Of a stretch of DNA of 60,152 bases, positions 50,716 to 56,999 are shown one piece after another; the first letter of the stretch is position 1; each line of letters opens with the position of its first letter. Source of the DNA: an uncultured Clostridia bacterium (lineage in GTDB: Bacteria > Bacillota > Clostridia > UBA1381); assembly GCA_904395315.1 (NCBI GenBank), contig CAJFNT010000152.1, positions 1 through 60,152 of the forward strand, written 5' to 3'. The notes beneath the pieces are model-generated. The model worked only from the letters and a program-made list of their open reading frames with translations. It had not been told where the DNA came from and made no database searches. The position numbers and the translations under genes are program-made.

Positions 50716-52731
50716 TTACATCGGGCCACCGCCGCCGGGTGCGCCGCCACCGCCGGGTGCACCGCCGCCGCCAGACATACCTCCGCCCATGCCGCCTTGC
50801 ATACCGCCCATGCCGCCTTGCATTTGCATGGTACTGTCTTCAACACTTCCCTGTGCTTCATTTCCGCTTGCTGCAATAGATCCGCATACAACATCACCCT
50901 CATTAAGTCCGGATTTTATCTCGATATACTGTGAATCAGTTACTCCTGTTTCAACATCAACACTATAATATCCATCCGGTGCCTTATCATTTTCATCGGT
51001 CTTTTCTCCTTGAACATAGACTATATTCCCGCGCTGCAAAGAATCAACCGGTATTGCAAGAACATTATCTATACTTTCAACTGTTATAACACAGTCAACA
51101 TTCATTCCCGGTAAAAGATCGCCATAATCAGATATTACTATATCTACAGGATACGTTGTCACTCCGTTTTCGGATGTTCCGTTCACTCCTACTTTCTCGA
51201 CCGTTCCCTTAAATGTTCCTTCCACGGCATCAGCCGTTATCGTAACTTCCTGGCCTGCTGCTATATCCTTTATATCGCTTTCATCCACCGAAAGTTGTAC
51301 TTTAAGCGTAGACATATCATAGATCACGGCCATAGGCTCACTCGTAGTCCCAGTGTTCGTTTCGAGTTTATCTCCTGCCTTTTTGTTCTTTTCTATTATA
51401 GTTCCCTCTATAGGTGCTTTTACCTCATAATCCTCAAGACTCTTTTTTGCCTTTTCAAGGCTTATACGGGCATTATCCAGAGAAAGCGCAGCACTTTGTA
51501 TATTGGAATCAAGTGAATATGTATCGCTTTCCACAACAAGCTTTTCAAGCTGAGTGTATGCGTCATCTCTTGAAAGCTCTGCCGATTCAAGCTGATCTTC
51601 CGCGCTTGCAAGACTATTTTCAATAGCGCTCGATGTAATATATCCTATCACTTGACCTTCATTGATCACATCATTTTCCTGAAGATAAAGTTCTCCCAAT
51701 CTGCCGCTGCTCTTCGCTGTAAGATAACCCTCATCGTAATATTCGAATGTTCCGAGATCATTACAAGCCGCTCCATTTATAACAGCAGAAGCCTTATCCT
51801 CCACGGTAAGTCCTCCGGGATTGTCAACAGTTATCGTAACATAACGAACTATCGCATGAGCACTTGTTGCTTGTGTGGATGTGCCAACATTCTCAACCAC
51901 TCCAGTGATCGTATCTCCTGATGATGCAATTGAAAGTGTTGCTATATCACCCGAACTGATCCCATCTGCATCCGCCTCATTAAAAGGAAGCTGTATCTTT
52001 AGTCTGCTTGCATCATACACACGCGCAATCTGTGTTCCATCGTTGACACTATCACCATCATTTACAAGAACTTCTGCAACTGTTCCACTACAATTTGCTG
52101 TTATTGTAAGATTATCGTAATTTTCTTGTGCTTCGTTTAGTGAACGAGACGCGGAATCAACAGAATTGAGCGCATTCAATATAGCGTTCTGCTGTGACTG
52201 TTCATTTAAATTGTTTGTCTGAATCGTATTAGCTTTCTGACGCACCGCATCTGCGTACTGTTGCTGCGCTTGTTCCAATGAATTCTCAGCGCTTTCAACT
52301 TCCTTCTGTGCGTCATCCGAATCAATCGTATAAAGAACTTGATCTTTTTTTACAAAATCCCCCTCGCTGAAACTATCCGAAAGTATCTCACCTGTTACAA
52401 GTGCAGTAACTTCGTATGTATCATTCGCCTCAATTACTGATGAACCGTCAACCGTCCTCGTTATGCTCCTGCGCTCGACGGTCGCCGTTGTATATTCTGT
52501 TTTTGTATCATCTCCCGCTGACATATGCTTGATAATAAATGCTGCCGCTGCCGCAACAATCAGAAGCGCTATTATAATAAAAACAACTGTTTTCTTAGAA
52601 GGTTTTTTTAACTTACTGAAAAATCTTTTAACTCTTCCACTTTCTTCATCATTTTCAGTCTCGCTTGACGGTGTAGTAAACCTATTCTTTTTCCGCAATT
52701 TCCTTTCCTTTGTTACGGTTTCATCTGCCAT
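50716..52731 (-). CDS. Membrane fusion protein (HlyD/MacA-like adaptor) with duplicated adaptor module and Gly/Met/Pro-rich tail
   Basis: N-terminal TM, coiled-coil/lipoyl halves, two ...VYDASRLKIQL.. / ..IYDMSTLKVQL.. beta-barrel units; RBS GGAGG. Confidence 0.9.
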   Translation of the reverse strand: MADETVTKERKLRKKNRFTTPSSETENDEESGRVKRFFSKLKKPSKKTVVFIIIALLIVAAAAAFIIKHMSAGDDTKTEYTTATVERRSITRTVDGSSVIEANDTYEVTALVTGEILSDSFSEGDFVKKDQVLYTIDSDDAQKEVESAENSLEQAQQQYADAVRQKANTIQTNNLNEQSQQNAILNALNSVDSASRSLNEAQENYDNLTITANCSGTVAEVLVNDGDSVNDGTQIARVYDASRLKIQLPFNEADADGISSGDIATLSIASSGDTITGVVENVGTSTQATSAHAIVRYVTITVDNPGGLTVEDKASAVINGAACNDLGTFEYYDEGYLTAKSSGRLGELYLQENDVINEGQVIGYITSSAIENSLASAEDQLESAELSRDDAYTQLEKLVVESDTYSLDSNIQSAALSLDNARISLEKAKKSLEDYEVKAPIEGTIIEKNKKAGDKLETNTGTTSEPMAVIYDMSTLKVQLSVDESDIKDIAAGQEVTITADAVEGTFKGTVEKVGVNGTSENGVTTYPVDIVISDYGDLLPGMNVDCVITVESIDNVLAIPVDSLQRGNIVYVQGEKTDENDKAPDGYYSVDVETGVTDSQYIEIKSGLNEGDVVCGSIAASGNEAQGSVEDSTMQMQGGMGGMQGGMGGGMSGGGGAPGGGGAPGGGGPM

Positions 52732-52773
52732 ATATATGCCTCCTTCTATTGAATTAACCATCAGACAGTTGCT

Positions 52774-53030: not shown

Positions 53031-55589
53031 TTATTTAAATTTACTTTTTAACGCCGATTTTATCACTTCATCAATCGTAACATCATACTTTTTAGCCGCC
53101 GCTGCGATATCGTCATATTCCGGCTTCTCTCGAACTATATTTCCGTAAACACTCCTTTTTACCGTTATTCTGCCATATTCTGTATCAACGCTCTCCATCT
53201 CACAACTCATAACTCTTCTGCTGTATTTTGCATAACGAACTCCGCGTGTAGATGTATGCATCATGATCGCTTTTATAACGCTTTCAAGCTTATCCTCGTG
53301 CGCTATGCAGGTTATAAGCACTCCCGGACGATTCTTTTTCATATATACGGGCGTATAATATACATCCGCCGCGCCTGCTTTTTCTATCATTTCACGCGCA
53401 TATCCCAGCGCTTCTCCTGTGATATCATCAACAGCTGCTTTTATTTCATATACAGAATCATTCGCGCCTTTATCGTCCCGAAAAAGCGCCGATGAATACA
53501 TCGGCACAAACGATGCCTCTGTAACGCGTTCGCGCACATCTGTTTCAAGATACACATCATCCTTAAGCTCGGATATCAAAAGCTCCGCCTTTCCGTTCTC
53601 AATAAGGCTGCACGGAATCATCCACGGTCTGCCGTACCAATAATCATCTGCCACAAGTTTGCCTCCCGAATAGATCTGAGCTGCATCCCCCGCATAATCG
53701 ACCCTTATAAATCCGTCTTTCGCATCCGTGTTCAGTTTATACATACGTATTTGCCTTTTTCCGCCTATCTCAAGTTCACAGTCAAATTTATGCGGAACGT
53801 ATTCAGCCTCTTCAATGGAGACTTCTGCATTTTGGTCCTGCGGCACGACTTCATAATGTTTAAAGCATCCGTTTTCCCATTTTGAATACGAGAGATCCCC
53901 GTTGCCAAGCCTGTATATTTCCTCTTCCGTCAATGCGGCTCCATCTGTAAGATACAGTTCACCGTTTATCTTGTAAAGTCTGCGCGCCTCAGTATCGCTC
54001 AGCACAACGAATCTCACGCCGTTCTTTACAATATCCGTACCGTACAGTTTCTCATCTTCAAAAACAAACTCAGGCTCATTTTTTCCGTTCTTTTTAAAGA
54101 AATATACGCCGTCATGGACGCATATAAGCTGGCATGTCGAATACCTGAGCTTTAAGCCTCCGAGTTCTATATTAAACGGTATGATAAAACTGTCTCCGTC
54201 TTCAACTGTCATACCATTCTCAGGGAATACTATGCCGTCAACTTCAAACTTTACATCGGTATGCTCCGCAAGTTTTTCAAGGCGCTGATAATTATTTATA
54301 AATACAAAGCCGCCTTTGTCACTGCGTCTCATACTGTATCTCAGACTTATTGTATCGTGACTGTCCGATGCCGGTCTATCCGAAAAATACGCGTCCATCG
54401 GCGCCAATAGCTCCATAAAATCATTTACAAACATATGCAGCTCCTTTAAGAGCTCATATTGTCCGCGTATGAGTCCGAACTCCCCTATCGCAGCCTGAAA
54501 ATCGTATGATAGTATCGGGTAATCATTTGGATATCCGGTGGCTTTTGATTCATTAAATGTCGAATATCGGCCTATTTTATTTGTACCTCCATGATACATA
54601 TAATATCCGGGCATATTATTCCCGCTGCCGAGCTTTACCAAAGACAGCGCATATATATCTTTTTCGGATATTATCGGCCTTCTGTGGTGAGTAACTTCTA
54701 TGCCACCGCCGAGTTCACATGTCGCATACGGGTATAACTTATAGTCTATCCCTCTTGCCGCGGCATCTTTGTCATCACCGTCTTTGGGTATCAGATCCGC
54801 CCCTATCGCGCTATCATTTCTCATCGAGTTAAAGAAATAGTTCGGCGACGGCGCAAGCTTGTCTGTATGTCCTGTCCATGGGGCCTCGGGATAGCCTCCG
54901 AATACCGGCAAAACATCATACTTTGGTATCTCCGCTCCATATATACTGTTCCAGCCTGTAACAGTGTATATCGGAGCTTTCAATCCGGCTTCAATTGCCA
55001 GCTCTTTAAGCTTTAAAAGATGTTCCGCTCCGTCTACAAGTTCATTTTCAAGCTGGATCGCTATAATATTTCCTCCTTCAGAATACATAAGGTCCTTTAC
55101 CTGACGGCCTATCGCGCCATACCATCCGCGCACGATCTCTAAATAGCGTTCGTCATTGCAGCGCAGCGGTATCCCTCTTTTCAAAAGCCAGTCCGGAAAT
55201 CCTCCGTTCCTGCATTCTCCGTGCGCCCACGGTCCTATCCTCAAAACGACGTCCAGCCCGCATTCTCCGCACAGTTTTATGAATGAGCGCACATCGTTAT
55301 CGCCGGTAAAATCTATCTGACCTTCAGTTTCCTCGTTGTATATCCAAAGCATATATGTTGAGATCACTGTGATCCCCCCGGATTTCATCTTGAGCAGCTC
55401 ACGCCTCCAGTATCTGCGCTCAAGCCGCTGAAAATGTATTTCACCCATAACAGGTATATACGGCTTTCCGTCACGTATAAGATACCTGCTGTTCAAAGTT
55501 ATCTCTCCTCCGTCAGGCGCTTTTCCTCCAAGCTTCAGATGTCCATTAAGAACTTCCGGCTGTTCTTTCATATCAAATCTATATATCAT
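53031..55589 (-). CDS. GH35 beta-galactosidase-like protein fused to a C-terminal LarC (nickel insertion) domain
   Basis: GH35: MGEIHFQRLERRYWRRELLKMKSGGI, LRIGPWAHGECRNGGFPDWL, IAIQLENEL. C-terminal 143 aa: VDDITGEALGYA, YTPVYMKKNRPGVLIT, HTSTRGVRY, KPEYDDI = LarC signatures. Confidence 0.88.
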   Translation of the reverse strand: MIYRFDMKEQPEVLNGHLKLGGKAPDGGEITLNSRYLIRDGKPYIPVMGEIHFQRLERRYWRRELLKMKSGGITVISTYMLWIYNEETEGQIDFTGDNDVRSFIKLCGECGLDVVLRIGPWAHGECRNGGFPDWLLKRGIPLRCNDERYLEIVRGWYGAIGRQVKDLMYSEGGNIIAIQLENELVDGAEHLLKLKELAIEAGLKAPIYTVTGWNSIYGAEIPKYDVLPVFGGYPEAPWTGHTDKLAPSPNYFFNSMRNDSAIGADLIPKDGDDKDAAARGIDYKLYPYATCELGGGIEVTHHRRPIISEKDIYALSLVKLGSGNNMPGYYMYHGGTNKIGRYSTFNESKATGYPNDYPILSYDFQAAIGEFGLIRGQYELLKELHMFVNDFMELLAPMDAYFSDRPASDSHDTISLRYSMRRSDKGGFVFINNYQRLEKLAEHTDVKFEVDGIVFPENGMTVEDGDSFIIPFNIELGGLKLRYSTCQLICVHDGVYFFKKNGKNEPEFVFEDEKLYGTDIVKNGVRFVVLSDTEARRLYKINGELYLTDGAALTEEEIYRLGNGDLSYSKWENGCFKHYEVVPQDQNAEVSIEEAEYVPHKFDCELEIGGKRQIRMYKLNTDAKDGFIRVDYAGDAAQIYSGGKLVADDYWYGRPWMIPCSLIENGKAELLISELKDDVYLETDVRERVTEASFVPMYSSALFRDDKGANDSVYEIKAAVDDITGEALGYAREMIEKAGAADVYYTPVYMKKNRPGVLITCIAHEDKLESVIKAIMMHTSTRGVRYAKYSRRVMSCEMESVDTEYGRITVKRSVYGNIVREKPEYDDIAAAAKKYDVTIDEVIKSALKSKFK

Positions 55590-55713
55590 CGCAAACTCCT
55601 TAAACTGTTTTTATAATGCACAAGACATTCTTTATTTTCAGTATACACCTATATGCGTTTTTTTTCAACCGTTATAATTGCTTGCTTTATATAAAATTAT
55701 TGCTATTGCAAAA

Positions 55714-55740
55714 ATGAGCTGCCGTATACCGGCAGCTCGT
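55714..55740 (-). terminator. Terminator downstream of the gltD-like gene
   Basis: GAGCTGCCG-TATAC-CGGCAGCTC with TTTTTGC tail on minus strand. Confidence 0.7.
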
Positions 55741-55745
55741 TACAT

Positions 55746-56999
55746 TCATTTTTCCGAAGATTCTTCTGTTTCGTCTTTCTTATCGAGATCTTGAATATAT
55801 TCATCTATCGCATCAGCTACAAGTTTTGAATACTTGACCGCCTCGACTACTGTTCTCGCACCGTTTACAACATCTCCCGATGCGAATATGCCGTCTCTTG
55901 TAGTTTCTCCGAAAGTATTGGTTACAAGAAGACCGCGGTCAGTAACATCCAATCCACCGGTGTTTGCCACAAGCATATTGTCAGCGCCCTGACTTATCGC
56001 TATTATGGTGCTGTCGGCCTTCTCAAGATGCTCCGTTCCCGGGATCCTTGAAAGATGTCCCTTCCCATCACATTCCAGTTCCGCAAAAATGACCCCATCG
56101 TCTACGATCTCAACAGGTTCTATGTGCATCTTAAATGTTACACCTTCAAGCTTCGCATAGTTTACCTCGTGCTCGCTCGCAGCGAAATAGTCGTGTCTCG
56201 AATAAATTGTCACTTCTCTTGCTCCGTGACGCAGCGCCGTTCTCGCAACATCCATTGCCGAATTTCCGGCGCCTATGATATTTACCTTCTCTCCAAGTCT
56301 ATATACATCAGGATTCGTAAGATAATTTATCGCATAATGCACATTTCCTAAGGATTCTCCCTTTATATGCAGAGTATTCGGTCTCCATACTCCTATACCT
56401 ATAAACACAGCAAGATATCCGTCTCTGAACAGATCGTCTATCTTGATGCTGCCTCCAACAAGAGTATTCGGACGTATCTTTATACCAAGCTGGTACAATC
56501 GCTCCTTATACCTATCGAGGATCGACTTCGGAAGTCTGAATTCAGGGATGCCGTAACGCAACACTCCTCCTATCTGCTCTTTCCCCTCAAATATGGTTAT
56601 ATCATAACCACGTCTTGCAAGTATTATCGCTATTGTTATTCCGGCTGGTCCGGATCCGATTATCGCTACTTTTTTCCCGTTCTTTTTAATATCACCGAAT
56701 TCAAGCCTGTCAAAAAAGTAATCCGAAACATAATTCTCTATGTACGAGGCGTGCACAGGTGAACCCTTTCTGTTTAAAACGCAGTGCCCTTCACACTGAT
56801 TTTCATGATTGCATATAAGCGAGCAGATCAGCGAAAGTGGGTTATTCTCAAACAGCATTTTTCCCGCAGCATCGATATTTCCGTCAAGCAGCGTCCTGAT
56901 CATTTTCGGAATAGGCGTGTGTATAGGACAGCCTTCCATGCACATAGGCTTCTTGCAGTTCAAACAACGTTTCGCTTCGTCGAGTACATGATGTGCCAA
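55746..56999 (-). CDS. NAD(P)-dependent FAD/Fe-S oxidoreductase (glutamate synthase small subunit / NfnB-like)
   Basis: AKRCLNCKKPMCMEGCPIHTPIP Fe-S motif, VAIIGSGPAGITIAIILARRGYDITIFEG, NIIGAGNSAMDVARTA. Confidence 0.9.
   Translation of the reverse strand: MAHHVLDEAKRCLNCKKPMCMEGCPIHTPIPKMIRTLLDGNIDAAGKMLFENNPLSLICSLICNHENQCEGHCVLNRKGSPVHASYIENYVSDYFFDRLEFGDIKKNGKKVAIIGSGPAGITIAIILARRGYDITIFEGKEQIGGVLRYGIPEFRLPKSILDRYKERLYQLGIKIRPNTLVGGSIKIDDLFRDGYLAVFIGIGVWRPNTLHIKGESLGNVHYAINYLTNPDVYRLGEKVNIIGAGNSAMDVARTALRHGAREVTIYSRHDYFAASEHEVNYAKLEGVTFKMHIEPVEIVDDGVIFAELECDGKGHLSRIPGTEHLEKADSTIIAISQGADNMLVANTGGLDVTDRGLLVTNTFGETTRDGIFASGDVVNGARTVVEAVKYSKLVADAIDEYIQDLDKKDETEESSEK

Follow-up and report, generated by a model that had tools for sequence, protein, structure and literature searches.

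LarC, the nickel insertase of NPN cofactor synthesis, is known in two forms, a single chain and the product of a frameshift, the latter e.g. in Lactiplantibacillus plantarum, where larC1 and larC2 are joined by ribosomal frameshifting. Its second half, LarC2, was reportedly identified as the CTP-binding part in the work on structure 6bwq. Nickel insertion into P2TMN by LarC is CTP-dependent and proceeds via a cytidinylylated intermediate, and in about 15% of genomes larB, larC and larE occur with no larA (PMC11796402). In Anaerobutyricum, larC1 and larC2 are neighbouring genes (PMC7702098), and the short LarC2 frames that we inspected in a sample of the class all have LarC1 adjacent. Distant larC1 and larC2 genes, separated by about 5.5-24 kb or located on different contigs, were found independently in five Bacillaceae genomes, so trans-split LarC has arisen elsewhere and has precedent.

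Here we describe a locus of gut Clostridia at which LarC2 forms the C-terminal part of a GH35 glycosidase. From its sequence and that of its relatives we consider it probable (roughly 0.77) that LarC is a trans-split nickel insertase in these bacteria, with GH35-LarC2 and LarC1 encoded by separate genes.

A GH35 glycosidase with a LarC2 domain

The window, i.e., the whole stretch of 60,152 nucleotides that was analysed, is a contig of a draft MAG in 195 contigs (G000). A preliminary description had recognised GH35 and LarC2 joined in frame in one 852-aa ORF and proposed a profile search, which matched both families above their cut-offs and bore out the fusion. The GH35 profile PF01301 covers residues 37-386 (E 3.1e-56, 191.8 bits against a cut-off of 27, profile positions 2-317 of 319), and the Ni_insertion profile PF01969 residues 706-842 (E 3e-41, 142 bits against a cut-off of 22.1). 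Of the 375 positions of the latter profile, 238-374 are matched, which is only the LarC2 part at the C-terminus. The NCBIfam equivalog domain nickel_LarC2 (NF052512) was also matched (E 1.7e-36, 124.9 bits against a cut-off of 50), and the domain carries the motifs DDITGE, GAADVYYTPVYMKKNRPG, TSTRGVR and KPEYDD. Its closest solved structure, L. plantarum LarC2 6bwo, aligns over 137 residues without a gap (E 7e-26). The features of the locus are given in Table 1.

Table 1. Positions of the fusion gene, its domains and neighbours, and of candidate NPN users at other loci
Feature	Position	Strand	Details and basis
GH35-LarC2 fusion gene	53031..55589	-	852 aa, single open ORF; same ORF in G033 and G041
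GH35 catalytic domain	54432..55481	-	residues 37-386; Pfam PF01301
GH35 beta-rich C-terminal part	53541..54431	-	residues 387-683; AlphaFold model and end points of 28 relatives
Interdomain linker	about 53457..53540	-	residues about 684-711; evolution rate and model confidence
LarC2 domain	about 53034..53456	-	residues 712-852; profiles, 6bwo alignment, conserved residues, Foldseek
Shine-Dalgarno-like AAGGAG	55596..55601	-	precedes ATG at 55589; sequence
Promoter-like TTGAAA-17-TATACT	55640..55668	-	upstream of fusion gene; consensus match, chance alone being expected to give about as many in the region
Terminator-like hairpin and T run	55716..55738	-	3' of upstream oxidoreductase gene
Glutamate-synthase-small-subunit-like oxidoreductase	55746..56999	-	upstream syntenic marker; named by reading the sequence
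HlyD-like efflux adaptor	50716..52761	-	downstream syntenic marker, followed by ABC ATPase and permease; named by reading the sequence
Cu_amine_oxidN1 and DUF362 protein, G000:C22	L115:1506-2996		
Cu_amine_oxidN1 and DUF362 protein, G045:C14	L113:3378-4493		
Cu_amine_oxidN1 and DUF362 protein, G037:C5	L132:1391-3337		
Cu_amine_oxidN1 and DUF362 protein, G041:C36	L117:2889-4340		

The AlphaFold model of the fusion (mean pLDDT 85.9) has two well-modelled units, with a drop in confidence at residues 704-710 (<50) and pLDDT mostly between 78 and 97 across residues 711-850, the LarC2 part. Foldseek matched one unit to GH35 enzymes and the other to LarC2 6bwo (E 1.4e-14, 38% identity); LarC2 relatives were present in the alignment behind the model, so this fold match depends on the sequence match. 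The linker is the fastest-evolving stretch of the fusion, and 28 free-standing GH35 relatives end at about query residue 682-690. The earlier view of LarC2 as a discrete module is supported.

In the fused LarC2, a candidate for CTP and metal binding, DD, MKK-R, R and E are retained at conserved positions. In the GH35 part, E183 (55041-55043) and E292 (54714-54716) are invariant in 31 GH35 relatives, and from general knowledge of GH35 we take these to be the acid/base and the nucleophile, respectively. We infer that the fused GH35 would be enzymatically active, possibly as a beta-galactosidase; enzymes of other specificity, i.e., an exo-glucosaminidase and a beta-1,2-glucosyltransferase, match this part too. 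No signal peptide is apparent on reading the N-terminus, therefore both halves should be cytosolic. Release of a free LarC2 from an internal start was considered and is unsupported, since the three known fusions share no in-frame start codon in the stretch from residue 680 to the LarC2 core.

The search for the same domain pair elsewhere, also proposed in the preliminary description, found the fusion at the same locus in two further species of this Clostridia genus, Candidatus Ornithomonoglobus merdipullorum (G033, DVNB01000032.1, 78% identity) and G041 (CAJFVT010000104.1, 73% identity). The order hisH, hisF, two membrane proteins, oxidoreductase, fusion, hlyD and ABC exporter is common to all three, and the oxidoreductase is the same neighbour in G045 and G043 as well. 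As a terminator-like hairpin follows the oxidoreductase gene, the fusion gene is probably transcribed as a unit of its own.

The state of the assembly, a draft in many contigs, might suggest that assembly or binning had joined a GH35 gene to a fragment of larC, and a chimera at the junction had been raised as a concern. However, this fusion recurs with its flanking genes in two separate public assemblies of other species, at 73-78% identity, which rules out a chimera and leaves the artefact a negligible probability. Neither is the fusion a recent accident, as had been suggested: its presence in three species at this identity, with dS near saturation and low dN/dS, shows that it is old and maintained. 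Estimates of dN/dS, which are rough because dS is near saturation, were about 0.03-0.15 for GH35, 0.07-0.09 for LarC2 and 0.07-0.11 for LarC1, and all three are under purifying selection.

In the 95 surveyed genomes of the order, the frames that hold LarC2 have the size of LarC itself (379-487 aa), except for the three fusions, G045 and a single frame truncated at the end of a contig. No further GH35-LarC2 fusion turned up in these genomes, in the matches listed for 393 class genomes or in the 80 best relatives from the genome collection. The pattern is one evolutionary episode, not several.

The LarC1 half and the history of the locus

A PF01969-family search of the whole G000 genome found three places: the fusion, a LarC1 on contig C50 and a diverged full-length LarC on C163. 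The LarC1 (C50:26329-27141) is 270 aa long, lies directly 3' of a larE-like gene and ends in TGA-TAA-TAA. G033 and G041 also have an orphan LarC1 beside larE, in the same surroundings and without an adjoining LarC2, so that a LarC1 partner is encoded in each fusion genome. Within the genus, orphan LarC1 genes (Pfam positions 1 to about 235-248, with their own stop codons) are confined to G000, G033, G041 and G045, and the missing positions, about 237-374, are supplied by the fusion or, in the case of G045, by a stand-alone gene. These genomes also have LarB; the genus members with canonical LarC have it at full length, often as larB-larC. Of the lar genes that the preliminary description had proposed to seek elsewhere in the genome, larE, larB and the LarC1 half were found and LarA was not, while its statement that the window holds no other lar gene stood. 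The fusion ORF holds LarC1 and LarC2 neither in one chain nor joined by a frameshift, and a frameshift-type larC at the fusion locus was rejected, since none of the frames near LarC2 in L139-L141 encodes LarC1.

The genomes with the fusion are draft MAGs with a completeness of 86-89%, and a further LarC2 could lie in the missing part; LarC1 and the fusion are on different contigs linked via binning, the same pattern being seen in four bins. Against conserved-residue sets defined from 31 full-length LarCs, the orphan LarC1s keep 39-41 of 42 residues and the fused LarC2s 22/22, 22/22 and, in G041, 21/22.

The second, full-length LarC homologue (C163:8485-9660 in G000; L002:1492-2709) could be taken to insert nickel, with the fused LarC2 a functionless fragment. 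This is very unlikely. While the homologue exists in the fusion genomes, in each of its halves roughly half or more of the conserved residues are gone, with only 25-27/42 retained for LarC1 and 8-10/22 for LarC2, and it is without DDMTGE and MKKNRPG; the fused LarC2 is under purifying selection and shows no decay. Homologues also occur in nine other genus members, including sister species with a canonical LarC in addition. With so few conserved residues remaining it is a poor substitute, and it was rejected as a replacement for the split LarC. As it is retained across the genus despite these losses, it probably has a different function.

The fused GH35 is sister to the free-standing GH35 of another genus (G030). 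Uniting it with the GH35s of its congeners was rejected (AU p 4e-6), and the trees place it as a separate lineage from these. LarC1 groups with its own genus and family (100/100). For the fused LarC2, phylogeny is compatible both with an origin from the genus's own LarC and with another one (AU p 0.37), so the two halves may or may not share their descent. A first tree suggested an origin from Bacilli, but neither an improved model nor the AU test (p 0.37) upheld it.

G045, a fourth species (98% complete), has at the same locus a 154-aa stand-alone LarC2 with its own start and no GH35, and it possesses the orthologous larE-larC1 pair plus the original larE-larB-larC operon. In the LarC of this operon, LarC1 runs directly into ...YEDLAEIAARNKISLSDIKITEE, the C-terminal end of a canonical LarC2 (61% identity over 31 aa to the tails of canonical LarCs, E 5e-7). 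An in-frame deletion has removed the core of LarC2, some 115 residues, from the operon gene and left this tail as its scar. In a tree built from the flanking genes of the fusion locus, and which therefore shows the history of that locus, G045 is placed beside G041 within the fusion clade (support 93-100); G043, with no insert at the locus and a full-length LarC, falls outside. Given this nesting, G045 probably lost the GH35 while LarC2 stayed. No GH35 scar was found at the G045 and G043 loci. In the simplest history, LarC2 would have arrived at, or fused into, the locus in the clade ancestor, the LarC genes would then have lost their own LarC2, and G045 would later have lost GH35 and retained LarC2. 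Two separate GH35 gains are possible but less simple.

Proposed function and candidate clients

In the trans-split LarC that we propose, LarC1, with its His-rich loop, would be produced from the larE-larC1 gene pair, and LarC2 solely as the tail of the cytosolic GH35 glycosidase. As the first half of LarC is encoded elsewhere, the halves most likely must meet as separate proteins; the two polypeptides would do so in the cytosol, jointly doing the job of a single LarC chain. That they physically associate and insert nickel is what we infer from their sequences. Because LarC2 sits on a flexible linker, the GH35 would be mainly a carrier, with a separate sugar-cleaving job. The fusion is a new organisation of a known enzyme, not a new kind of enzyme.

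Could sugar release by GH35 instead be tied to NPN maturation, e.g., for a sugar-acid isomerase? Sugar-acid NPN enzymes exist (PMC11796402), and the fusion has been retained in three species with both parts under purifying selection. For LarA (Lar_N, PF09861), however, none of the 16 genus genomes searched gave a match above cut-off, and two control genomes did; the gene sits between an oxidoreductase and an efflux operon, outside any sugar cluster; and G045 kept LarC2 without GH35. Such a functional coupling is unlikely, and the link to a LarA-family sugar-acid epimerase drawn in the preliminary description finds no support in the LarA search or in G045. Also improbable is a bifunctional device, in which the GH35 would position, stabilise or sense for the nickel insertase, coupling NPN maturation to glycan breakdown and serving a non-LarA NPN enzyme, such as one of the secreted-looking DUF362 proteins whose genes adjoin larB.

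A further reading is that LarC2 was repurposed and now serves the glycosidase as a regulatory or oligomerising domain that binds CTP, with no role left in NPN synthesis. This would agree with its being a covalent part of a glycosidase with conserved catalytic glutamates, and with the absence of a LarA client from the searched genomes of the genus, but it is quite unlikely. The conserved LarC2 residues have all been retained, bar the one in G041, every fusion genome has an orphan LarC1 lacking exactly the LarC2 half, and G045 retains LarC2 on its own; the earlier suggestion of a repurposed nucleotide-binding domain fits poorly with these observations.

Secreted-looking proteins with Cu_amine_oxidN1 and DUF362 (PF04015) domains adjoin larB or larE-larB in G000, G045 and G037. 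An ArsP_1-type permease, possibly for metal or precursor transport, adjoins larB or larC1 in the genus (L115:3927-4835, L113:7732-8631, L116:5501-6409), and the Cu_amine_oxidN1 and DUF362 protein of G041 sits near the same permease. DUF362 and LarA belong to the same Pfam clan, CL0471 (PMC11770544). Three DUF362 proteins gave weak Lar_N matches over a stretch including HFKGHAMAGFGGAIKN, and the DUF362 profile gave no LarA match against PDB. These DUF362 proteins are candidate non-LarA users of the NPN cofactor.

With a split LarC, LarC1 and LarC2 are predicted to come together as separate chains, and genomes scored as LarC-less or as having half a LarC may hide the other half in an unrelated protein. 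The fusion marks a genus without recognisable LarA.

Comparison with known systems

No description of a trans-split LarC was found in the literature searched, the main LarC papers (JBC 2018, Metallomics 2022) being outside its scope. The free-standing GH35s of the same bacterial family, mostly 670-705 aa, share 47-54% identity with the fusion over the GH35 part and keep the glutamates, but none carries LarC2. A LarC chain with an extra domain occurs in one Lachnospiraceae MAG (L213:2492-4450, 652 aa), where a GNAT-like N-terminus, recognised by eye, precedes LarC; unlike the fusion, that LarC is full length and unsplit, and it is known from a single MAG.

L. plantarum LarC2 (structures 6bwo, 6bwq, 6bwr) resembles the fused domain in the gapless 137-residue alignment and in fold, and both systems have LarC1 and LarC2 as separable reading frames. 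However, the two are adjacent in L. plantarum, whereas here they are distant genes, with LarC2 on a GH35, that no frameshift can join. In the Bacillaceae, distant larC1 and larC2 were seen in Oceanobacillus, Gracilibacillus and Sporosarcina (L176, L179, L199, L203, L210; loci L241-L247), and the order larC1-larB-larC2 in L198, L216 and L217, including Oceanobacillus. These three genera share with the present locus the placing of LarC1 and LarC2 genes at separate sites, but in them LarC2, about 155-170 aa long, stands alone with no fusion partner, whereas here it is fused to GH35.
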